Source of the DNA: Vicinamibacterales bacterium
GTDB lineage: Bacteria > Acidobacteriota > Vicinamibacteria > Vicinamibacterales > 2-12-FULL-66-21
Assembly: GCA_035699745.1 (NCBI GenBank)
Contig: DASSPH010000064.1
Coordinates: 1 to 52,905, forward strand
Length of the DNA: 52,905 nt
Direction of reading: 5' to 3'
The notes under the pieces were generated by a model, which did not search any database, was not told the DNA's origin, and worked only from the letters and a program-made list of their open reading frames with translations. Positions 4,903-31,757 of the stretch are shown here, piece after piece (positions within the stretch are counted from its first letter, which is position 1; each line of letters opens with the position of its first letter). A program made the translations under genes and the position numbers.

Positions 4903-5583
4903 TCAGCCGGCGAACTTGTAGCCCATGCCGTGCACGGTGAGGATGAACTGCGGGTGGCGCGGGTTGGGCTCGATCTTCTGCCGCAGCCAGGCGACGTGGA
5001 CGTCGACGGTCCGCGTCGACGGCATCGAGTTGTAGCCCCACACCTCGTTCAGCAGCTCTTCGCGCGTCAGCGTCGCGCCGCGGTGCTCGAGGAAGTAACG
5101 CAGCAGCTGGAACTCGCGCGCGGAGAGCTCGATCGGCGCGCCGTCGCGCGTGGCTTCGGCCTTGCGGAAGTCCACCCGGACATCGCCGAACGCGAATCCT
5201 TCGGCGGGATGCGGCGCCGCCGGCGCGCGGCGCAGCTGCGCCTCCATCCGCGCCAGCAGCTCCGCCATGTCGAACGGCTTGGTGACGTAGTCGTCCGCGC
5301 CGAGCTTGAGGCCGACCACCTTGTCGATCACCTGGCCCCGCGCGGTCAACATGATCACGGGGGTCTCGATGCCGCGCTTGCGCAGCTCCCGGCACACGTC
5401 GAAGCCGCTCATCCGCGGCAGCATGAGATCGAGCAGGATCAGATCGAAGGCCTCGCGCGACGCGCGCTCGAGGCCGCTCTCGCCGTCCGCTGCCGCGTCG
5501 ACGCTGTATCCCTCTGTCGTCAGCCGGTCCGTCAGCGTCAGGACGATGCCCGCCTCGTCTTCGACGAGAAGGATTCTCTTCAC
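4903..5583 (-). CDS. OmpR/PhoB-type response regulator
   Basis: The 226-residue protein has an N-terminal receiver domain (residues 1-118; acidic pocket E8/D9, phospho-acceptor D52, switch T80, conserved K102 in TKPFD) and a C-terminal winged-helix DNA-binding domain (about 130-224; DVHVAWLRQKI, TVHGMGYKF). The start is a GTG at 5583. It overlaps the stop of the upstream histidine kinase as GTGA, which indicates translational coupling. A longer in-frame reading back to 5901 is a shadow of the kinase. As an OmpR/PhoB-family regulator it should bind tandem direct repeats with 10-11 bp periodicity; such a repeat lies at 7620-7646, upstream of both the kinase and the divergent receptor operon. 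Confidence 0.95.
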   Translation of the reverse strand: MKRILLVEDEAGIVLTLTDRLTTEGYSVDAAADGESGLERASREAFDLILLDLMLPRMSGFDVCRELRKRGIETPVIMLTARGQVIDKVVGLKLGADDYVTKPFDMAELLARMEAQLRRAPAAPHPAEGFAFGDVRVDFRKAEATRDGAPIELSAREFQLLRYFLEHRGATLTREELLNEVWGYNSMPSTRTVDVHVAWLRQKIEPNPRHPQFILTVHGMGYKFAG

Positions 5584-7559
5584 GACGTTTGAGGCGCGGC
5601 GTCGGCGACGCGGTCGTGTCCGTCCGCGGCATCGCCGCGGAACGCCGGCAGCGACACCGTGAAGGTGCTGCCCTGTCCCGGCGCGCTCTTCAGGGTGATC
5701 CGGCCGGCGTGCGCCTCGACGATCCGCTTCACCAGACTCAGGCCGAGGCCGGCCCCCTGGATCTGCGCGGCGACGACGCCCGGCGCGCGGTAGAAGGGAT
5801 CGAAGATCCGCGCGTGATCCGCGGCGGCGATGCCGATGCCGCGATCGCTGACGCTGATCTCGACGGTGGAGGCGGTGCGCGTCGCGGTGATGCCGATCCA
5901 TCCGGCCTCCGCGCCGTACTTGATCGCGTTGCCGACCAGGTTCTGGAAGACGCGGCGCAGCGCCGCTTCATCTCCCGGGACCGGCGGAAGGCCGTCCGCC
6001 ACCGCAATCTCCACCCTCAGACCCGGCGGCGCGGTCGCCTCCGCCGTCGCCGCCACCTCCCTCAACACACGATCGATCTCGACCGGGCGCGCCGTCATGC
6101 CGCGCTGGCCTGACTGCAGGCCGGCGAACTCGAGAATCTGCTCGACGAGGTCGGTGAGGCGGAGCCCTTCGCGACGTACGAGCTGGCCGTACTGCCGGAT
6201 GCGTGCTTCGTCGCTGACCACGCCGTCCGCCAGGTTGTCGGCGGCGGATCGGATCACCGCGAGCGGCGTGCGCAGCTCGTGCGAGACGGTGGCGACGAAC
6301 TCGAGCTGCTGGCGCGCCAGGTCGTGCGCGCGGCGCGTCGACACGATCAGAAAGGCCACGCTCAGGCCGAGGACGCCGAGGATCCCGGAGCTGATCGCGA
6401 GGTTGCGGCGGCGGGCGGCGTTGACCGCCGTCTCGAGCGATCCCGACGGATGTTTCACCAGCAGCCGCCAGTAGGACGGCGACGGCACACTCACTCTCGT
6501 ACTGAACGTCGTCGCGCCAGCGGCAAACAGCCGGTCGCCGCGCTGCGAGGACTGTCCGGGCGATCCCTGGACCACGATGGAGAACGGCGCGCCGCCGGCG
6601 GCACCGGCGGGGGACTGGCCAATCGTCTCGCGATAGATCGTGTGCGTGCGCTGTGACGGATTCGAGCGCGGGCTCGCGCTCAGGGCAGTGAAGCGGCTGA
6701 CTTCGGCGGCGAGCGGCTCGAAGTCTCTGGCGCGCACCTGAAACAACTCGACGGTGGCGTCGACCTTCGCGTCCGCCCCGGGGGAGAACTCGCGGGTCGA
6801 CCGGTAGAGCGGCGCCTCGCCTTGCGCAGGCAGCACCGCGAGCTGGTACTCGAAGCCGACACCGGTCCGGTTGAAGTGCTGCTGCGCGAGCGCCGGCAGC
6901 ATCTCGTTCTTCATGTACTCCGCGTCGAGCATCAGCACGGTGTGCCGGATGCCCGGCGCGAGGCGCGCGGGGATGCCGCGCATCTCGCTGAGCCGCGCGT
7001 CGATGTGGCTGACCATCAGCATCGGCGACTGCACGACCAGCGCGGGGACGGCCGGCCAGACGGCCGGAACCATCGCACGAAGGAGGAGCGCGGGCCCGGC
7101 GGCGCCGGACACGGGGGGCGGCGGCTGCTCCATCTGCTTGCGGATCGGTGCTGCGGCATCAGGCCATTCGGCGGGCTCGACGAATCGCGTCGCCGGGTTG
7201 TAGTGCTGCAGCGTGAGCGTGTCCCCCGGCGCCGCCTGGGGAACGATGTAGACGTCCTTGACGATGCGGGGGAAGCGGGAGGTGGCGAGCCAGCGATCGT
7301 ACCGCCCGGCGACGGCGGCGGCGGCGCCCTGCTCGGGATCGAGCGAATCGAGCTGAAACAGCAGGTAGGCGCGGGTGAGCTCGCGGTCGACGTCCTGCGC
7401 GAACGCGGTGGCGCGATCGTGGAGCGAGGCTTTCATGCGCTCGCGCTCCGCGCCGCTGATCTGTCCGAGCCACTTGTACTGCAGCGTGGCGAGCAGCGCG
7501 ATCAGGCCGAGGAGCCCGCCCGCGATGATCGCCATCGGCACCCGGAATTGCCGTCGCAT
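5580..7559 (-). CDS. membrane sensor histidine kinase
   Basis: The 659-residue kinase has a first membrane helix at about 8-27 and a long, probably periplasmic sensor region at about 30-385 with no domain I recognise. A second membrane helix follows at about 387-407, then a HisKA dimerisation domain with the phospho-acceptor H427 (VATVSHELRTPL) and a HATPase_c domain. ATPase boxes are N (QNLVGNAIKYG, N540/N544), G1 (SDRGIGI, about 572-577), F (IFDPFYR) and G2 (GAGLGLSLV). No HAMP domain is evident between helix 2 and HisKA. It is the first gene of a two-gene operon with the response regulator. Its ligand is unknown; the divergent secreted protein and TonB-dependent receptor are obvious candidate targets. 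Confidence 0.93.
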   Translation of the reverse strand: MRRQFRVPMAIIAGGLLGLIALLATLQYKWLGQISGAERERMKASLHDRATAFAQDVDRELTRAYLLFQLDSLDPEQGAAAAVAGRYDRWLATSRFPRIVKDVYIVPQAAPGDTLTLQHYNPATRFVEPAEWPDAAAPIRKQMEQPPPPVSGAAGPALLLRAMVPAVWPAVPALVVQSPMLMVSHIDARLSEMRGIPARLAPGIRHTVLMLDAEYMKNEMLPALAQQHFNRTGVGFEYQLAVLPAQGEAPLYRSTREFSPGADAKVDATVELFQVRARDFEPLAAEVSRFTALSASPRSNPSQRTHTIYRETIGQSPAGAAGGAPFSIVVQGSPGQSSQRGDRLFAAGATTFSTRVSVPSPSYWRLLVKHPSGSLETAVNAARRRNLAISSGILGVLGLSVAFLIVSTRRAHDLARQQLEFVATVSHELRTPLAVIRSAADNLADGVVSDEARIRQYGQLVRREGLRLTDLVEQILEFAGLQSGQRGMTARPVEIDRVLREVAATAEATAPPGLRVEIAVADGLPPVPGDEAALRRVFQNLVGNAIKYGAEAGWIGITATRTASTVEISVSDRGIGIAAADHARIFDPFYRAPGVVAAQIQGAGLGLSLVKRIVEAHAGRITLKSAPGQGSTFTVSLPAFRGDAADGHDRVADAAPQTS

Positions 7560-7619
7560 GCGGTGATCCTAGCACCGGGCGTCGGGGCTTTTGGCCGTGC
7601 CGCCGCAGGTTTTACCTCC

Positions 7620-7646
7620 TTAACAAACTCTTAGCCTCCGGTTAAC
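7620..7646. promoter_or_regulatory. three 11-bp-spaced TTAAC/TTAGC direct repeats, candidate OmpR-family operator
   Basis: In the 148-bp divergent region between the histidine kinase and the secreted protein gene, TTAAC begins at 7620, TTAGC at 7631 and TTAAC at 7642. The three half-sites are on the same strand and exactly 11 bp apart. That is the geometry of PhoB/OmpR-class binding sites, and the adjacent two-component operon encodes such a regulator. The block is AT-rich in an otherwise GC-rich region. The assignment is inferred from geometry and context. Confidence 0.5.
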
Positions 7647-7707
7647 CACTGCGCGCGGCCAAGCCGCGATGATGGCTCGTCTCATTCGGACGAAAGGGAA
7701 TCGCATC

Positions 7708-8712
7708 ATGAACCATCGAGCAGTGGCAGCAGTGGCGGCGGCGGCGGCGATCGCCTTCGCGCGGCCGGTCATCTACATCGCCCAGGAAGTGAACAAGGCG
7801 GCAGAGATCGTCGCCGCGGCGCGCAAGGCGATCGGCGACAGGAAGCTGGAAGGGCTGAAGACCTTCTCGGTGCAGGCCGGCCTTCAGCGCAACATGGCCA
7901 ACACGCAAGTCAGTTCGGACGTCGAGATCGTCCTCGAGCTGCCGGACAAGTACCTGCGGCAGGAAACGCCCCAGGGCGGCGGCATGATCCTCGCCGGCGG
8001 CGGCCTCTCCGGCTTCAACGGCGACCTGCCGCTGCAGAAGGCCAACGCCGGCGGCGTCCCCGGCGGCGGGATGGTGATCCGCATGGGCGGCCCGGGCGGC
8101 GCCGTGATGGGCAGCGGCGAGAAGCCGACGCCGGAGCAGATGGAGCAGATGAACAAGGCGCTGGTCCGCAACGGCCGCAGCGAGGCGTCGCGGCTGATGC
8201 TCGGCTGGTTCGCGGCGGCGCATCCGGCGGTGAACGCACAGTACACCTACGCCGGTGAGGCGGAATCGCCCGACGGCAAGGCGTACGTCATCGACGTGAA
8301 GAACGCCGACGGTTTCACCGCCCGCCTGTTCATCGATCAACAGACCAACCTGCCGCTGATGGTGACCTACAAGGCGCCGCAGCCGCGCATGATGACGGCC
8401 GGCGGCGCGCCACCGGCGGCCGCGTCGGGCGGCCACGTGATCCGATCGCAGGCGCCGGGCGGACAGCTCACGGAAGAGGAGCGCAGGAAGCTGCAGGCGG
8501 ACGCCGAGAAGCAGATCCAGGAGATGCAGCGGCAGCCGCCGGCGATGGCGGATTACGCGCTGTACTTCGAGGAGTGGCGCGAGAGCGACGGCGTCAAGTT
8601 CCCGTTCAGGATGCGGCGCGCGACCGACGGCACCACCACGGAGGAGTGGACGGTGAGCCGGATCAAGCTCAACCCCAGGATCGACGCGAAGCGCTTCGCG
8701 CCGGGCAGCTAG
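7708..8712 (+). CDS. secreted hypothetical protein upstream of TonB-dependent receptor
   Basis: The 334-residue protein starts at the ATG at 7708, preceded by AAAGGGA about 8 nt upstream; an in-frame ATG at 7669 would add 13 basic residues before the signal sequence. An Ala-rich hydrophobic N-terminus (about residues 4-20) looks like a signal peptide. The mature part starts with a helical segment (KAAEIVAAARKAIGD) and contains a Gly/Met-rich central stretch (about 90-131, including GGGMVIRMGGPGG). Its C-terminal half reads like a lipoprotein-localisation-type beta fold (YFEEWRESDGVKFPFRMR), a resemblance I hold only weakly. The gene is 10 bp upstream of the receptor, so the two form an operon. 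I do not recognise the family. Confidence 0.75.
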   Translation: MNHRAVAAVAAAAAIAFARPVIYIAQEVNKAAEIVAAARKAIGDRKLEGLKTFSVQAGLQRNMANTQVSSDVEIVLELPDKYLRQETPQGGGMILAGGGLSGFNGDLPLQKANAGGVPGGGMVIRMGGPGGAVMGSGEKPTPEQMEQMNKALVRNGRSEASRLMLGWFAAAHPAVNAQYTYAGEAESPDGKAYVIDVKNADGFTARLFIDQQTNLPLMVTYKAPQPRMMTAGGAPPAAASGGHVIRSQAPGGQLTEEERRKLQADAEKQIQEMQRQPPAMADYALYFEEWRESDGVKFPFRMRRATDGTTTEEWTVSRIKLNPRIDAKRFAPGS

Positions 8713-8722
8713 AGAGCGCGCC

Positions 8723-11362
8723 ATGAAGGCATTGATTGCGATGCTTGCGCTCGCCGCGTTCGCCGCGGGCGCCGCTCCGGCGGCCGCGCAGGCGCGTCAG
8801 ACGGGGACGCTGCGGATCGTCGTCAAGGATCCGAGCGGCGCCGTGATCCCCAACGCGACCGTGGTCGTGAAGGGGGCCGACGCCGCCACCCGCGACGTGC
8901 TGATCCGCGAGCTGACGTCGGACGGCCAGGGCGTGGCTTCCGCCGTCGACATGGCGCCGGGGCGTTACACCGTCACCGCGAGCTTTCCAGGGTTCGAGAG
9001 CCATACGCTGAGCGACGTTCGCGTCCGCGCCGGAGACAACCGGCGGGAGCTGACGCTGCCGATCGAGAAGGTCGCCGAGAGCGTCGCGGTGGGACAGGAT
9101 CCGCGCGCCGCCGCGTCGGATCCGAAGAGCGAGCGCTTCGGCAACGTGCTGTCCCGCGAACAGATCGAAGCGCTGCCCGACGACCCGGACGAGATGGAGC
9201 AGGTGCTCAAGCAGATGGCCGGCCCGGGGGCGACGCTCCGCATGGACGGGTTCCGCGGCGGCAAGCTGCCGCCGAAGGCGCAGATCCGATCGATCCGTTT
9301 CTCGACGGCGATGTTCGCCGCCGAGAACCACAGCGCGGGACACACCTTCATCGACATCTCCACCCAGCCCGGCCTCGGGCCGCTGCGCGGGAGCATGGAT
9401 TTCAGCTTCCGCGACGGATCGATGAACGCGCGCAATGCGTTCCAGCCGCAGAAGGGTCCGGAGCAGACGCAGCAGTACAACCTGAATCTGAGCGGAACGC
9501 TGCTGAAGGACCGGACCTCGTTCTCGCTCTCGGCGGGCGGCGCCTCGCTGTACGACTCGGCCAACATCTTCGCCGCCGTGCCCGGCAGCGCGGTTGCCGC
9601 GCCGGTGCGGCGGCCGTCGGACCGCCTCAACTTCAACCTCCGCGTCGATCACGCGGTCAACAAGTCGCACACGCTTCGCGGATCGTTCCAGCAGACCGGC
9701 GGCGAGCAGCGCAACCTCGGGGTCGGCAACTACGATCTCGCCGACCGCGCCTACGCGCGCACCACGTCCGAGAGCCTGCTGCGCATCTCGGAGAGCGGAC
9801 CCTGGTCGCGCCTCTGGTATGCCGAGTCGCGGCTGCAGCTCCGCCGGGCGGCGAGCGATACGGTCTCCGCCTTCGAAGGGCCGACCACGCGTGTGCTCGA
9901 CGCATTCACGTCGGGCGGCGCACAGGTCGCCGGCGGCCGGGAGAGCACCGACCTCGAGCTGGCCACCGACATCGATTACGCGCGGCGCGGGCATTCGATC
10001 CGCATGGGCGCGCTCGTCGAGGGCGGCCGCTATCGCAGCGACACGCGGACGAACTATCTCGGCACCTACACGTTCACCAGCCTCGATGAGTACGCGGCGC
10101 GGCGCCCGGCGACGTACACGCAGCGCACGGGCAATCCGCTCGTGACCTACTCGCAGTGGCAGGCCGGGCTCTACCTGCAGGACGACTGGCGCGTGCGCCA
10201 GAACCTCACGCTCAGCGCCGGCGTGCGGCAGGAGTTCCAGACGCATCTCGACGATCGCTGGAACTTCGGCCCGCGCGGCGGCTTCACGTGGTCGCCGTTC
10301 ACGAGCGGGAAGACCACCGTGCGCAGCGGCGTCGGCCTGTTCTACGACTGGCTCGAGGCGGAGACGTTCGAGCAGACGCTGCGCGTCGACGGCTCGCGCC
10401 AGCAGGACCTGGTGGTGGTGAACCCGTCGTTCCCGGATCCGTTCACCGGCAGCGGCGGGGAGCAAGTCCTCCCGCCGGGCAAGTACCTGCTCGCCGGAGG
10501 CCTGGTGATGCCGAGGCGGGCGATGGCGCTCTTCGCGGTGACGCAGCGGCTCTCCAACACCGTCAGCATCAACGCCAGCTACAACCACCAGAAGGGCCGC
10601 GATCGCTTCCGCGGCGTCAACACCAACGCGCCGTTGAACGGCGTGCGGCCGGACGCCACGCTCGGCAACGTGACGCAGGTGGAATCGACGGCCCGCCTCG
10701 AGCAGGACTCGATCAACGTCGGCATGAACTTCACCGTCCCGGCCCGGCGGACGTTCGTGTTCGCCAACTACGCCTGGACCAACCTGCGCAACGACGCGGA
10801 CGGCCCGTTCAGCCTCCCGGCTGACAGTTACGACCTCGCCGGGGAATGGGGACGCGGCGGCGGCGTTCCGCGCCACATCGCCAGCGCAGTCGTCAACACC
10901 TCGCTGATGCGCAACCTGCGGCTCGGCCTGTCGACCTCGGCGCGCTCGGGGACGCCGTACACGATCACGACCGGCCGCGACGACAACGGCGACACGGTGT
11001 TCAACGATCGGCCGGCCGGCACCCCGCGCAACAGCGTGACCGGCGCGGCGGTATGGGACATGGCGGCGCGTCTGACGTACGCGTTCGGCTTCGGCGAACG
11101 TCCGGCGTCCACGGGCACCCCCGGCGGACAGATGGTCGTGATGCGGATGGGCGGCGGCGCCGGAGATCTGCTCGGCGGCCTCGGCGGCGGCGGCGCGGAG
11201 AACAAGCGGATCCGCATCGAGCTGTTCGTCGCCGCCTCGAACGTGTTCAACAACGTGAACCCGATGGGCTACTCGGGGGTGATGACCTCGCCGTTCTTCG
11301 GACGGCCCACGATTGCCGGGCCGGCACGCAAGATCGACGTGGGAATGAAGATCGGCTTCTAG
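8723..11362 (+). CDS. TonB-dependent receptor with N-terminal carboxypeptidase-regulatory domain
   Basis: The 879-residue outer-membrane protein has a signal peptide (residues 1-24, ending AAAQA). A carboxypeptidase-regulatory-like Ig fold follows (about 28-115: GTLRIVVKDPSGAVIPNATV, PGRYTVTASFPGFE), then a plug region (LSREQIEALPDDPDEMEQVLKQMAG) and a long beta-barrel that ends in an aromatic residue (KIDVGMKIGF). This is the usual acidobacterial oma87/SusC-like layout for uptake of oligomers or metal chelates; the ligand is unknown. Residues about 801-824 form a Gly/Met-rich loop (MVVMRMGGG) that resembles one in the protein encoded just upstream. The stop codon overlaps the stop of the convergent lipoprotein gene by 4 bp (CTAG). 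Confidence 0.9.
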   Translation: MKALIAMLALAAFAAGAAPAAAQARQTGTLRIVVKDPSGAVIPNATVVVKGADAATRDVLIRELTSDGQGVASAVDMAPGRYTVTASFPGFESHTLSDVRVRAGDNRRELTLPIEKVAESVAVGQDPRAAASDPKSERFGNVLSREQIEALPDDPDEMEQVLKQMAGPGATLRMDGFRGGKLPPKAQIRSIRFSTAMFAAENHSAGHTFIDISTQPGLGPLRGSMDFSFRDGSMNARNAFQPQKGPEQTQQYNLNLSGTLLKDRTSFSLSAGGASLYDSANIFAAVPGSAVAAPVRRPSDRLNFNLRVDHAVNKSHTLRGSFQQTGGEQRNLGVGNYDLADRAYARTTSESLLRISESGPWSRLWYAESRLQLRRAASDTVSAFEGPTTRVLDAFTSGGAQVAGGRESTDLELATDIDYARRGHSIRMGALVEGGRYRSDTRTNYLGTYTFTSLDEYAARRPATYTQRTGNPLVTYSQWQAGLYLQDDWRVRQNLTLSAGVRQEFQTHLDDRWNFGPRGGFTWSPFTSGKTTVRSGVGLFYDWLEAETFEQTLRVDGSRQQDLVVVNPSFPDPFTGSGGEQVLPPGKYLLAGGLVMPRRAMALFAVTQRLSNTVSINASYNHQKGRDRFRGVNTNAPLNGVRPDATLGNVTQVESTARLEQDSINVGMNFTVPARRTFVFANYAWTNLRNDADGPFSLPADSYDLAGEWGRGGGVPRHIASAVVNTSLMRNLRLGLSTSARSGTPYTITTGRDDNGDTVFNDRPAGTPRNSVTGAAVWDMAARLTYAFGFGERPASTGTPGGQMVVMRMGGGAGDLLGGLGGGGAENKRIRIELFVAASNVFNNVNPMGYSGVMTSPFFGRPTIAGPARKIDVGMKIGF

Positions 11363-28190: not shown

Positions 28191-29420
28191 ATGGGTGAGT
28201 TTCTCGACACCGTCCCGTTCTCCGGCATCATCCGCATCCGCGACATGATGTACAGCGTCGAGGATCCGTTCCGTCTCGACCAGGGGGACGTGAGCTTCGA
28301 CGCGCCCGACACCGTCAAGCACGCGATGCGGCGGGCGATCGACGAGAACCGCAGTCATTACCTGCAGACCACGGGACTGCCGCGCCTGCTCGAACTGCTG
28401 GCCGGGAAGCTGCGGACTCGCAACGGCATTCCGGTCGGCTCGCCCGACGAGATCATGGTGACGACCGGCGGCATCCACGCCCTGTTCATCGCCTGCCAGG
28501 CGCTGCTCGAGCCCGGCGATGAGGTCATCGTTCCCGATCCCGAGTGGCCGCCGTGCGCCGGCAACATCAAACTCGCGCGCGGCGTGCCGGTGCCGTGCCC
28601 GCTGCGCGAGCCGCTCGGGTGGCGCTACGATCTCGACGAGCTCGCCGCCAAGATCACGCCGAAGACGCGCGCCATCTACCTCAATTCGCCGCACAACCCC
28701 ACCGGAGGCGTGCTGGGCCGGGCCGATATCGAAGCGATCGCGGCGCTGGCCGGGCGGCATGGGCTGTGGATCCTCTCCGACGAAGCCTACGAGGATGTGA
28801 TCTTCGACGCCGCGGAGCACGTGAGTCCGGCGTCGCTGCCGGGCATGTACGAGCGGACGATTTCGCTCTACACCTTCAGCAAGACCTACGCGATGACGGG
28901 GCTGCGGCTCGGATACGTCGCCGCCAGGGACGCGCAGCTGCGCGACCGGATGAAGAAGGCGCTGTTCTACACCGCCAGCAACATCGCCTCGGTGGTGCAG
29001 TTCGGCGGCATCGGCGCGCTCGAGGGATCGCAGGAGGCCGTGGCGCAGTTCCGCACGGAGCTGCAGGCGCGCCGCGACCTGTTCTACGACGGGATTCGCG
29101 CCAGCGCCGGCGGCGTGCTCACCGGCGAACCGCCGCGCGGCGCCTTCTACGCGTTCCTGCGCATCGACCCGTCGTGGGCGCCGCCGGGTGGCGCCAGGGA
29201 ATCGATTTCCTGGTCGATGACCGAGTACCTCATCTCGCGCGGCCGGATCGGGTGCGTTCCGGGCGTGGACTTCGGCGCCACCGGCGAAGGCTACGTGCGC
29301 TTCTGCTTCGCCCGCGACCGGCGCGAGCTGACCGGCGCGCTGGAATCGATGCGCGCGCTCTTCAGTTCGGCTCCGATTCACAGTCGGCCAGCAGCTCCAG
29401 CAGCAGCTCCGGGCTCGTGA
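28191..29420 (+). CDS. class I/II PLP-dependent aminotransferase
   Basis: The 409-residue fold-type I aminotransferase has TTGGIHALFIACQALLEPGDEV, the cofactor-binding YLNSPHNPTGG (Asn) and LSDEAYEDVIF (Asp/Tyr). The Schiff-base lysine K231 is in YTFSKTYAMTGLRLGY, and a C-terminal Arg is in YVRFCFAR. The amino donor is unknown; the group includes aspartate, aromatic and alanine aminotransferases. The last 19 codons, a Pro/Ala-rich tail after RALFSS that is atypical for the family, lie antisense to the 3' end of the REC-KaiB gene (59 bp overlap). A TAGGAT hexamer or a GGTAGGATC ribosome-like site precedes the ATG. Confidence 0.9.
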   Translation: MGEFLDTVPFSGIIRIRDMMYSVEDPFRLDQGDVSFDAPDTVKHAMRRAIDENRSHYLQTTGLPRLLELLAGKLRTRNGIPVGSPDEIMVTTGGIHALFIACQALLEPGDEVIVPDPEWPPCAGNIKLARGVPVPCPLREPLGWRYDLDELAAKITPKTRAIYLNSPHNPTGGVLGRADIEAIAALAGRHGLWILSDEAYEDVIFDAAEHVSPASLPGMYERTISLYTFSKTYAMTGLRLGYVAARDAQLRDRMKKALFYTASNIASVVQFGGIGALEGSQEAVAQFRTELQARRDLFYDGIRASAGGVLTGEPPRGAFYAFLRIDPSWAPPGGARESISWSMTEYLISRGRIGCVPGVDFGATGEGYVRFCFARDRRELTGALESMRALFSSAPIHSRPAAPAAAPGS

Positions 29421-30159
29421 TGTGCCCGAGGATGAACGTCCGCGGCCCGGGACTCCGGCGGACGAGCGTCGGCGTGAAGGCCACGGAGTCTTCCACGCCC
29501 GCGTTCGGGTTCTCCGACAGGTTGCACACGGTCAATTTCACCCGCGACGAACTGTAACGCTCCAGCACCTTGCGGATCGTCTTGACCGCGGCAGACGATC
29601 GCGGAGAGCGTGAGCTGATGTAGAGGATCAGATCGACCGGCTCCGGGCAGTCGGGGGGATCGCCGCCGCCGGTATCGCCGATCATGCCGGGACGAGTCGC
29701 GGGCGGCATCGAGGCGCGGCGCCGGCGGGTCCCGTTCCCCCCTTCCATCCGCTGCCGCACCCGCTCGATCAACTCGTCGAGATCGAACGGCTTGTAAATG
29801 ACCTCGTAAGCGGCGTCGGTTTCGACGTGCGGGTGCGCGGTGACAATCAGGACCGGCGTCCCCTGTATCAGCCCTTCGGACTCGGCTTCCTGCAACAGCC
29901 ACAAGCCCGATTGCCGCGGCAGCGCATAGTCGGTCAGGATCAAGTCGAATTCCTGCTCGCGCAGCGCATTGAGGCCGCACTCCGCGGTGTCGCAGGCAAT
30001 GACGGCGAAGCCGGACATGTCCAGCAGCGTGGCGATCATCTCGCGGATGTCGCGGTCGTCTTCGACCAGGAGAACGGTCGGCAGGGCGAGCCGATCCTCG
30101 TGCCCCGAGAAGTCCCACGTGTTCGCGCCGCTGCCACCCGGTCGGGATGTTCCTTCCAT
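29362..30159 (-). CDS. fusion of a response-regulator receiver domain and a KaiB domain
   Basis: The 265-residue protein starts at the ATG at 30159; a longer in-frame reading extends through the kaiC and SDR genes in a wrong frame. Residues about 28-138 are a complete receiver domain: acidic pocket E33/D34/D35, phospho-acceptor D77 (ILTDYALP), switch T107 and K123 in YKPFD. A 35-residue Arg/Gly/Pro-rich linker follows. Residues about 176-262 match KaiB, with the thioredoxin-like start LILYISSRSPRSSAAVKTIRK, a central KLTVCNLSENPNAGVEDSVAFTPTL (conserved TPTL, residues 229-232) and ILGHITSPELLLELL. Known KaiB is a free roughly 100-residue protein that binds KaiC. Here it is tied to a phosphorylatable domain and encoded 146 bp after kaiC. 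No output DNA-binding domain is present. Domain calls are confident; function is inferred. Confidence 0.9.
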   Translation of the reverse strand: MEGTSRPGGSGANTWDFSGHEDRLALPTVLLVEDDRDIREMIATLLDMSGFAVIACDTAECGLNALREQEFDLILTDYALPRQSGLWLLQEAESEGLIQGTPVLIVTAHPHVETDAAYEVIYKPFDLDELIERVRQRMEGGNGTRRRRASMPPATRPGMIGDTGGGDPPDCPEPVDLILYISSRSPRSSAAVKTIRKVLERYSSSRVKLTVCNLSENPNAGVEDSVAFTPTLVRRSPGPRTFILGHITSPELLLELLADCESEPN

Positions 30160-30305: not shown

Positions 30306-31757
30306 TCAGTCCGTCGTACGGCGATGGTGCTCGTTGACGCGCGCCGCTTCCGCGGGGGTCATCTTGGTCACCCGGAGGCCGCCGGGTTCGATATCGAGCC
30401 GGTAGGGATTGCTCTCGTGATCCGACCCGCGCATCTTGATCAGCCGCATGGTGCGGTTCATCTCGTAGCTGTCGAGGGTGTAATCGAGCACCAGGATGAC
30501 ATCGGCGATCGTCGACAGATACGGCGCGGTGTGCTCCACGCTGTTTCCCTGCGTCGTCTGGGTGATGAACGCGCTGCGCCCATGCTCGCGCAGGATGGCG
30601 GCGACGCCGATCATGAACTGCCGGAACCCCTTCTCCGACGAGGCGTGCTCGATCGACGAGATGCTGTCGAGGACGATGAGCGACGGCTTCAGCTCCTCGA
30701 GCCCGAGGCGCAGATCGACCAGCAGATCCTCCAGGCTCGTCGCCTCGGGGTAACGGCAGATCACCTTGAGATTGCCGGCCTCGATGAACTTCTCCATCGG
30801 CATGCCGATCTCGCGGTAGTTGCGCAGCAGAATCGGGCGGGTCTCTTCGAAGCCGTAGTACACGACGCGCTCGCCGCGGGCGGCGCCGGCCCGGGCGTAC
30901 AAGCCGGCGAGCATCGTCTTGCCGCTGCCGGTCGGTCCGCGCACGATGATGATCGAGTTGCGCAGCCAGCCGCCGTGCGTCAGCGCGTCGAGCCCCTGGA
31001 CGCCGCTCGAGTATCGTTCGACGTTGGCGTCGGCCGGATGCTCCTTGGCGTCGAGCGGAAACACGGCGAGGCCGCGGCTCGTGACGGTGCAGGGATACTC
31101 CCCTTTGTAGTGCGCGCTGCGGCGGTACTTGTTCACTTCGATCGATCGCCGCCGCCTGTCGCCGTCGACGATGTTGCGCAGCACGAGGGTGAGATCGCAG
31201 ACGTAGTCCTCGACCCCCATCGTCGTCAGCGGACCGTAGTCCGCCGCGGACTCCGCCAGGATGATCGCGGTCAGTCCGAGCGTGCGAAACGTATAAACGA
31301 GATGGAAGAAGTGGCTGCGCAGCGCTTCGGGCGCCGGCCGCGGGCTGAACAGCGCCGTCGCTGAATCGAGGACGATCGCCTTGGCGCCCGTCTCCTTGAC
31401 CATCGCCTCGACGCGGTGGACCAGCCCGAACAGGTCGTAATCGCCGGACACGATCGTCGGCCCGTCCATCGGACGGCCGATGTTCGCGAAATGCAGCTTC
31501 TTCTCCTTGACGAGCCGCGAAATCCCGAGCGACAGCGCGTCGCCGCTGTCCTGCAGGTCTTCGGGGGTCTCTTCGACGGCGAGCACGATCGTCGGCGTCC
31601 CCTGCCGCGCGAGGTTGCCCGCGATCTGAAGCCCCACCACGGTCTTGCCCGTGCCGCTCTTGCCGACGATCAGCGTCGATCGTCCTTCGGGGATCCCTCC
31701 GAGAGTCAGGATGTCGAGTCCGGGGACACCGGTTTCGAGCTTTCTCAGCGCGCTCAT
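30306..31757 (-). CDS. kaiC: KaiC-family two-domain ATPase
   Basis: The 483-residue protein consists of two tandem RecA-like domains, CI (about 1-245) and CII (about 246-465). CI has Walker A GKSGTGKT (32-39) and catalytic E62/E63 (VEETPED). CII has Walker A GPTGSGKT (274-281) and E304/E305 (FEETRPILLRNYREIGM). The CII segment TAPYLSTIADVI aligns with the cyanobacterial phosphorylation region: T410, S415 and T416 correspond to T426, S431 and T432 of Synechococcus KaiC, so autokinase/phosphatase chemistry is plausible. The C-terminal KaiA-binding tail of about 30 residues is missing, and no kaiA is nearby. The gene starts 9 bp after the SDR gene. Its partner is most likely the REC-KaiB protein encoded next. 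Confidence 0.95.
   Translation of the reverse strand: MSALRKLETGVPGLDILTLGGIPEGRSTLIVGKSGTGKTVVGLQIAGNLARQGTPTIVLAVEETPEDLQDSGDALSLGISRLVKEKKLHFANIGRPMDGPTIVSGDYDLFGLVHRVEAMVKETGAKAIVLDSATALFSPRPAPEALRSHFFHLVYTFRTLGLTAIILAESAADYGPLTTMGVEDYVCDLTLVLRNIVDGDRRRRSIEVNKYRRSAHYKGEYPCTVTSRGLAVFPLDAKEHPADANVERYSSGVQGLDALTHGGWLRNSIIIVRGPTGSGKTMLAGLYARAGAARGERVVYYGFEETRPILLRNYREIGMPMEKFIEAGNLKVICRYPEATSLEDLLVDLRLGLEELKPSLIVLDSISSIEHASSEKGFRQFMIGVAAILREHGRSAFITQTTQGNSVEHTAPYLSTIADVILVLDYTLDSYEMNRTMRLIKMRGSDHESNPYRLDIEPGGLRVTKMTPAEAARVNEHHRRTTD

Follow-up and report, generated by a model that had tools for sequence, protein, structure and literature searches.

A receiver domain of the two-component type (REC) and a KaiB domain are joined in one protein chain, encoded beside its own kaiC gene, in a soil-type Vicinamibacterales bacterium of the phylum Acidobacteriota. 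The gene lies at positions 29362-30159, on the minus strand, of contig DASSPH010000064.1, positions 1 to 52,905 of which are referred to below as the window. This architecture is confirmed by profile searches and recurs at full length beside the same type of KaiC in a second genome. As to its role, the fusion could serve as the KaiB subunit of the neighbouring KaiC, its receiver linking the KaiC ring to a histidine kinase encoded elsewhere, an interpretation held tentatively and with a little less than even confidence. Here receivers are covalently attached to KaiB, and in related genomes also to KaiC, which bears on how signals enter or leave KaiB-KaiC systems outside cyanobacteria. The elements concerned are the following.

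29362-30159, minus strand: REC-KaiB fusion gene (265 residues; ATG at 30159, stop at 29362, no internal stop)
29755-30075, minus strand: REC domain, residues 29-135 (Pfam match and residue check)
29929-29931, minus strand: codon of D77, phospho-acceptor Asp of REC
29839-29841, minus strand: codon of T107, active-site Thr of REC
29791-29793, minus strand: codon of K123, active-site Lys of REC
29641-29739, minus strand: linker, residues 141-173
29398-29625, minus strand: KaiB domain (Pfam residues 179-254; modelled elements 175-262)
30306-31757, minus strand: kaiC (P0002), two-domain, 483 residues, upstream of the fusion on the same strand

Receiver and KaiB in one chain

Both domains exceed their Pfam cut-offs in the same chain: Response_reg (PF00072) at residues 29-135 with 66.1 bits (cut-off 30.2) and KaiB (PF07689) at residues 179-254 with 47.6 bits (cut-off 27). 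They are the only Pfam matches of the protein, in which neither HisKA nor HATPase was found, nor the C-terminal four-helix domain of KaiA at E <= 0.001. When compared with Protein Data Bank (PDB) sequences, the REC half retrieves receivers (best PhoB, 1e-13) and the KaiB half retrieves KaiB chains, the best being 8fwj_M, the KaiB of Rhodobacter sphaeroides (4.2e-11). A KaiB profile run on the whole 6.3-Mb genome returns the fusion, at 50.1 bits, as the sole KaiB match at E <= 0.001. An initial annotation, drawn from the letters of the window, had described a complete REC with D77, T107 and K123, joined to a KaiB domain and located next to kaiC. Each of these statements holds, the gap between the end of kaiC and the start of the fusion being 146 nt.

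The neighbouring KaiC carries two KaiC ATPase domains, as judged by PF06745 (290.6 bits in two stretches), and also matches the NCBIfam model PRK09302 (420.5, over 408), but remains under the cut-off of the stricter TIGR02655 (342.3, cut-off 546.25). Its CII motif, HTAPYLSTIAD, retains a Ser-Thr pair, which we take to be the equivalent of S431/T432. In the whole-protein model of the fusion, the middle of the linker is predicted to be disordered (predicted local distance difference test, pLDDT, below 50 at 144-166), and the arrangement of REC relative to KaiB is given without confidence (predicted template modelling score, pTM, 0.55).

A local frameshift, a possibility raised in the initial annotation, is excluded, as is an assembly artefact, since an independent genome contains the fusion at full length, as a single open reading frame (ORF) with an identical start Met. 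This genome (G010, an Acidobacteriota of the same family; contig JABFWM010000416 of a metagenome-assembled genome, MAG) encodes a protein with 64-65% identity to that of the window. It adjoins the same KaiC type (78% identity to the window KaiC), and the flanking ORFs, judged by eye, resemble those of the window. Substitution rates between the two genes indicate that both domains are under purifying selection: nonsynonymous (dN) and synonymous (dS) rates are 0.28 and 0.78 for REC (dN/dS about 0.35) and 0.21 and 1.20 for KaiB (dN/dS about 0.18). The linker (dN 0.63, dS 1.40) changes faster than both domains, with pN values of 0.42 in the linker, 0.23 in REC and 0.19 in KaiB. At its 3' end, the fusion gene overlaps by 59 nt (29362-29420) the end of a convergent aminotransferase gene (28191-29420, plus strand).

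No published description of a receiver joined to KaiB was found by the searches made in the open-licence literature, in agreement with the initial annotation, while domain databases may already list the architecture. It has several precedents, namely SasA, the KaiA and CikA pseudo-receivers (PsR), KaiA3 and the archaeal iKaiC-REC; SasA, initially put forward as the known comparable fusion, is thus a valid precedent but not the sole one. The SasA of Synechococcus also combines a thioredoxin-like KaiB-type domain with a two-component module in one chain. However, SasA is a kinase whereas the window protein is a receiver, the order is reversed, with the signalling module N-terminal in the window, and no kinase adjoins the window locus; the sequence match of the KaiB half to the N-terminal domain of SasA (SasA-N) is weak (E 0.046). 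In KaiA and KaiA3, as here, the N-terminal part of a Kai component is a pseudo-receiver or receiver, but the C-terminal domain of the window protein is KaiB and not the four-helix bundle of KaiA. KaiA3 is described as REC fused to the KaiA C-domain, with the Asp kept in most cases, and the PsR of KaiA is reported to be devoid of helix alpha4 (PMC11372060). In cyanobacteria, a receiver-fold domain and KaiB are also partners in the complex of CikA PsR with fold-switched KaiB (PMC6378743, PMC12632262), which forms by beta2-beta2 pairing (PMC6378743), the alpha1-beta2-alpha2 face of the PsR being the one reported to bind KaiB (PMC12632262). That complex consists of two proteins and its receiver has no Asp, in contrast with the covalent join and intact active site of the window. 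The archaeal iKaiC-REC likewise has a REC joined to a Kai-family protein and a narrow distribution (PMC5847659), but it involves an inactivated KaiC-like ATPase, whereas here the partner is KaiB; a relative additionally has a REC at the C-terminus of a two-domain KaiC.

The KaiBC timer of Rhodobacter (Cereibacter) sphaeroides resembles the window locus in that KaiB and KaiC are present without KaiA, and its KaiB is the best PDB sequence match. This KaiB is a separate protein, described as a monomer when in solution, the wild type of which mostly adopts the ground state (PMC10076222, PMC10808063). As for extended KaiB proteins, the elongated cyanobacterial ones are reported to bear a 150-residue N-terminal extension, in which the survey describing them identified no known domain (PMC5520375).

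Kai loci in related genomes

A profile of the fusion-type KaiB was run against 193 genomes of the class, 29 of which matched at E <= 0.001. The best KaiB score is at least 68 bits in eight of them (G000, which is the genome of the window, G010, G011, G493, G427, G351, G426 and G507) and at most 55.1 bits in the rest. The window KaiC type occurs in five of the 193 genomes (G000, G010, G493, G426 and G427) with 64-78% identity, the G427 match being partial, at a contig end; the next best reaches 36%. All five carry a divergent KaiB in the same locus, four of them as REC-KaiB and G493 as separate ORFs. The arrangements and related loci are listed below.

G000 and G010: KaiC, then REC-KaiB
G493: consecutive ORFs KaiB, KaiC, REC, KaiB
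G426: KaiB followed by KaiC-REC, with two REC-KaiB genes in tandem facing them in convergent orientation
G427: at the edge of one contig, REC-KaiB, KaiB and the first part of KaiC; at the start of another, the last part of KaiC-REC, then REC-KaiB
L082:10627-12522 (G426) and L080:2-787 (G427): KaiC-REC, a KaiC with a C-terminal receiver (both domains confirmed by Pfam in G426)
L080:868-1536 (G427) and L082:9939-10613 (G426): REC-KaiB copies with His in place of Asp, putative pseudo-receivers, whose neighbour copies keep Asp
L013:3754-4359 (G011): apparent locus remnant, KaiB half and receiver tail
L084:8963-10148 (G507): apparent locus remnant, pieces of KaiB together with a truncated KaiC start that continues into the end of a receiver
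L081:184-558 (G351): apparent locus remnant, KaiB alone near a contig end
L085:8286-9572 frame (G374) and L086:7674-8990 frame (G427): type-B REC-KaiB-like genes, another REC with a KaiB-like stretch, hybrid kinases nearby

The two G427 contig ends are taken as the two ends of one locus, the contigs being left unjoined. Three further chains, from G426 and G427, contain REC and KaiB over both Pfam cut-offs, and in a fourth, from G426, KaiB scores 25.9 bits, just below the cut-off of 27. The architecture next to kaiC, which the initial annotation proposed to look for in other genomes, is found in G010 and, as REC-KaiB, in G426 and G427. The loci of G011, G507 and G351 look like remnants. The type-B set is only tentatively assigned to REC-KaiB, on the basis of a small custom profile and a tree, because the G374 protein has no Pfam KaiB match. 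In G426, a KaiB-like domain (L083:4017-5720 frame) was also observed after an N-terminal stretch in which no REC was detected; it forms a long branch in the KaiB tree.

In this tree, built from few columns and with some long branches, the fusion-type domains (15 of 72 rows) are separated from all others by a branch with full support (100/100). This led to rejection of the idea that the fusion carries one of the ordinary tandem kaiB genes of non-cyanobacteria. Such tandems were indeed encountered: many genomes of the phylum have two adjoining KaiB matches, loci L087 and L088 have the order kaiC, kaiB, kaiB, hybrid kinase, and kaiC, kaiB, kaiB are accompanied by a response-regulator gene on a Pararhizobium plasmid.

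The receivers are more diverse. In a receiver tree of 58 rows, those of the REC-KaiB chains of the window kind (type A) form two subgroups, with a bootstrap of 99 each (Shimodaira-Hasegawa-like approximate likelihood ratio test, SH-aLRT, 33 and 77). Support for a single branch uniting the six is weak (69/99), and one extra row with a long branch is included in it, so that a common origin of the type-A receivers rests mainly on their shared Thr-Lys spacing and K-3 residue, described in the next section. The KaiC-REC receivers group with hybrid-kinase receivers (98/87), apart from those of REC-KaiB, the standalone receiver of G493 is placed elsewhere, and the type-B set goes with yet another receiver. 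From the separate positions of the type-A, KaiC-REC and G493 receivers, it thus seems that receivers were attached to the Kai system more than once.

These distributions also bear on a very unlikely explanation, in which the KaiB half would have left the Kai system and would only serve an ordinary orphan response regulator as a thioredoxin-like domain for output or binding, the kaiC neighbour being incidental. The KaiB half is divergent, sharing 29-31% identity with four ordinary KaiB sequences, G011 and G351 keep a KaiB part without a match to the window KaiC type, and no KaiC was detected in the 18 kb fetched around each type-B gene of G374 and G427, all of which would agree with such a departure. 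The presence of the divergent KaiB in every locus with the window KaiC type argues against it, however, and in G507 the truncated KaiC start beside the lone KaiB indicates that this KaiB is a remnant. The CxxC motif was furthermore found in none of the 72 KaiB domains examined.

In a phylum-wide sample of 396 Acidobacteriota genomes, fusion-type KaiB occurs only in G000 and G351, with a score gap from 78.7 to 55.1 bits, and KaiC P0002 is matched at E <= 1e-90 in a single genome. The KaiB scan of this phylum matched 55 genomes at E <= 0.001, loci being obtained for 30, G000 included; in the 29 others, phmmer, run with the REC of the window as query (E 1e-3), found no REC on KaiB-matching ORFs, a search which distant receivers could escape. 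A wider contig scan with strict patterns returned only the two already known relatives, and no relative of KaiB or KaiC was obtained from viral contigs. Among plasmids, the KaiB half matches 14 records, in most of which an HWE or PAS kinase gene is in contact with the matching KaiB, and two KaiC matches were obtained at E <= 1e-60 (34-35% identity).

Active site and fold of the two halves

The active site of the window receiver is intact, with the acidic pair E33/D34, D77, T107 and K123. The acidic pair, Asp, Thr and Lys are retained in four of the six type-A receivers, the window included, and His replaces Asp in the second REC-KaiB copies of G426 and G427. All six share a spacing of 16 between the active-site Thr and Lys, versus 22 or 23 in the other 52 rows of the tree, and their residue at K-3 is V, I or L (V in the window), versus Y, F or H in the others. 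In the model, no helix is present between beta4 and beta5 (strands 103-107 and 119-122). The window receiver thus has neither helix alpha4, as judged from the model, nor the aromatic K-3 residue of the usual Y-T coupling, which does not affect its membership of the REC family, since other receivers vary too.

A short alpha4 region was considered as a hallmark by itself, and its value is weakened by the other receivers of the genome. These are represented by 94 rows, covering 90 of 95 other receiver places (five partial or weak ones were left out, and four rows are repeats from overlapping loci). The spacing is 22 in 78 rows, 17 in two, 19 in one and 16 in none, and K-3 is V, L or I in 16 rows; each feature alone is thus uncommon, not unique. 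Both receivers with spacing 17 keep the Asp, as do some of the viral receivers in which the alpha4 region is equally short, and the CckA receiver is among the close structural matches of the model (6tne, rmsd 1.1 over 106). The short alpha4 trait is thus not confined to clock proteins, and by itself is no mark of a pseudo-receiver. In viral contigs, the search with the REC half confirmed no relative, and that with a receiver alignment gave 49 loci, 14 of which were used solely as rows in an alignment for structure prediction.

An alternative view of the receiver, which we consider unlikely while granting it appreciable weight, is that it works by contact with a protein or ligand and not by phosphorylation. 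It would pack on its own KaiB half, as the CikA PsR does on fold-switched KaiB, and this packing would stabilise the KaiC-binding fold or compete with KaiC; sensing of a small molecule, as in KaiA, would also be possible. The absence of alpha4 from both the model and the KaiA PsR (PMC11372060) and the beta2-beta2 pairing of CikA PsR with fold-switched KaiB (PMC6378743) are in line with this view, as is the loss of the K-3 aromatic in all six receivers, and the change of Asp to His favours it for the two copies concerned. However, the window and three others keep D34, D77, T107 and K123 exactly, short-alpha4 receivers of the same genome and of viruses keep their Asp, and the model offers no confident arrangement of the two domains. 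Neither KaiA nor CikA PsR is among the 50 matches listed by VIA-align for the whole model, a list filled by receivers, and this absence carries no weight.

The KaiB half, modelled alone (pLDDT 68.6, alignment of three sequences), is predicted in the thioredoxin-like fold. Its best Foldseek matches are fold-switched KaiB (5jyt, 9.6e-4), the KaiC-bound KaiB of R. sphaeroides (8fwj, 1.9e-3) and 5jwo, and VIA-align places SasA-N first (1t4y, Z 8.1, rmsd 4.1, 97 residues), on a par with thioredoxins. The fold-switched state of KaiB is the one that binds KaiC; in R. sphaeroides, it is reported to bind the CI ring and to speed ATP hydrolysis (PMC10076222). The residues associated with the ground state are not kept: the equivalents of G88 and D90 (Synechococcus elongatus numbering) are L and A in the aligned window sequence. 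In the fusion-type clade, Gly and Asp are each found in one of 15 rows, versus 48 and 35, respectively, of the 57 other KaiB rows. The G89A/D91R variant of Thermosynechococcus elongatus KaiB is described as a fold-switched mutant (PMC6378743). Both positions are reported as not highly conserved even in KaiB1 (PMC5520375), and this test therefore bears on the resting state and not on family membership. The KaiB half seems to favour the binding fold, without being called locked.

Possible links between the receiver and the KaiC ring

According to the interpretation that we prefer, in which the fusion supplies the KaiB subunit of the neighbouring KaiC, the KaiB half in its thioredoxin-like fold would bind the CI ring in the manner of the fold-switched KaiB of Synechococcus/Thermosynechococcus and Rhodobacter, and this binding would alter the ATPase of KaiC and the autophosphorylation state of CII. 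D77 would be phosphorylated by a histidine kinase from another part of the genome, in which candidates exist, since 61 HATPase_c matches were counted (together with 96 REC matches). The state of the receiver would then set the amount of KaiB available to KaiC, and thus act as an input to the timer. Because the model has no helix alpha4 and the K-3 aromatic is replaced, the signal would probably be passed to the KaiB half by a different face, a plausible one being alpha1-beta2-alpha2 as in CikA. The initial annotation, which is partly supported as a whole, had suggested that a phosphorelay signal could gate KaiB binding to KaiC, or that the state of KaiC could control receiver phosphorylation. 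Its support lies in the fusion beside kaiC and in the recurrence of this fusion in other genomes; the simple picture of a phospho-gate is complicated by the short alpha4, the lost K-3 aromatic and the loss of Asp in two of six receivers.

Several observations weigh against such a phosphorylation-dependent KaiB subunit. The standard output route of receivers is doubtful here, because K-3 is aliphatic and alpha4 short in all six type-A members, and, judging from the two sequences with His, phosphorylation is not needed in every one of them. No histidine kinase adjoins the fusion, the sole HATPase_c match of the window being at 5643-5975, about 24 kb away, and G011 has a KaiB half with no match to the window KaiC type. 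The modelled thioredoxin-like fold is weak evidence for the resting state, because AlphaFold2 is reported to predict the fold-switched form of T. elongatus KaiB as well, although that protein prefers the ground state (PMC10808063), and because the alignment held only three KaiB rows. The fold-switching prolines (R. sphaeroides P58, P65 and P67) are all present in the window, and in 15, 10 and 10, respectively, of the 15 rows of the fusion-type clade. Since isomerisation of three KaiB prolines is reported to limit fold switching (PMC11551320), their retention would fit a KaiB still able to switch. Finally, the number of genomes is small and includes several fragmented MAGs, such as G426 with a completeness of 78%, and the fusion is known within Acidobacteriota.

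The signal could also run in the opposite direction, although this appears distinctly unlikely. The KaiB half would dock on KaiC according to the state of the latter, and the ring would show or hide the receivers, thereby steering a kinase and the phosphate pool. This would amount to a SasA-like read-out with the halves exchanged, of which the KaiC-REC of relatives (G426, with Pfam support, and G427) would be a constant version. SasA is known to read KaiC through its KaiB-like domain, and its non-cyanobacterial homologues are described as devoid of this domain, which leaves the output of such systems unexplained (PMC5520375). Receivers without the alpha4-beta5-alpha5 route could, moreover, still serve as phosphate sinks, a role at odds with the missing Asp of two among the six copies. 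The absence of a linked kinase also stands against a read-out, and R. sphaeroides KaiB is reported to change the ATPase and dephosphorylation of KaiC (PMC10076222), which goes beyond mere reading.

A broader picture, possible but somewhat improbable as a whole, would be that in this class of Acidobacteriota the Kai ring has been wired into phosphorelays by repeated attachment of receivers from different lineages, as REC-KaiB, as KaiC-REC and as REC beside KaiB. REC-KaiB would then be the one-protein counterpart of the KaiA or CikA PsR with fold-switched KaiB, the KaiB being kept in its KaiC-binding fold while a receiver signalling without alpha4 controls how available it is. If true, KaiC timers would have an input or output route free of both KaiA and SasA. 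The fusion might also show that a CikA-like pairing of receiver and KaiB has been reached by gene fusion outside cyanobacteria. The question of signal transfer is reducible here to two proteins, through the effect of the state of one Asp on the ATPase and phosphorylation of KaiC, or of the state of KaiC on phosphotransfer.

Two further loci of this genome combine kinases with Kai or response-regulator genes. A second two-domain KaiC, each half of which is strongly matched, is encoded on contig 48 (L014, G000:C48:60000-78000, ORF 7568-9076), where no KaiB match was obtained in the genome search; it is followed by a hybrid histidine kinase with REC (ORF 5977-7653). In the window itself, a histidine kinase gene adjoins that of a PhoB-type response regulator at 4906-7559 on the minus strand, this kinase being the one that carries the HATPase_c match.

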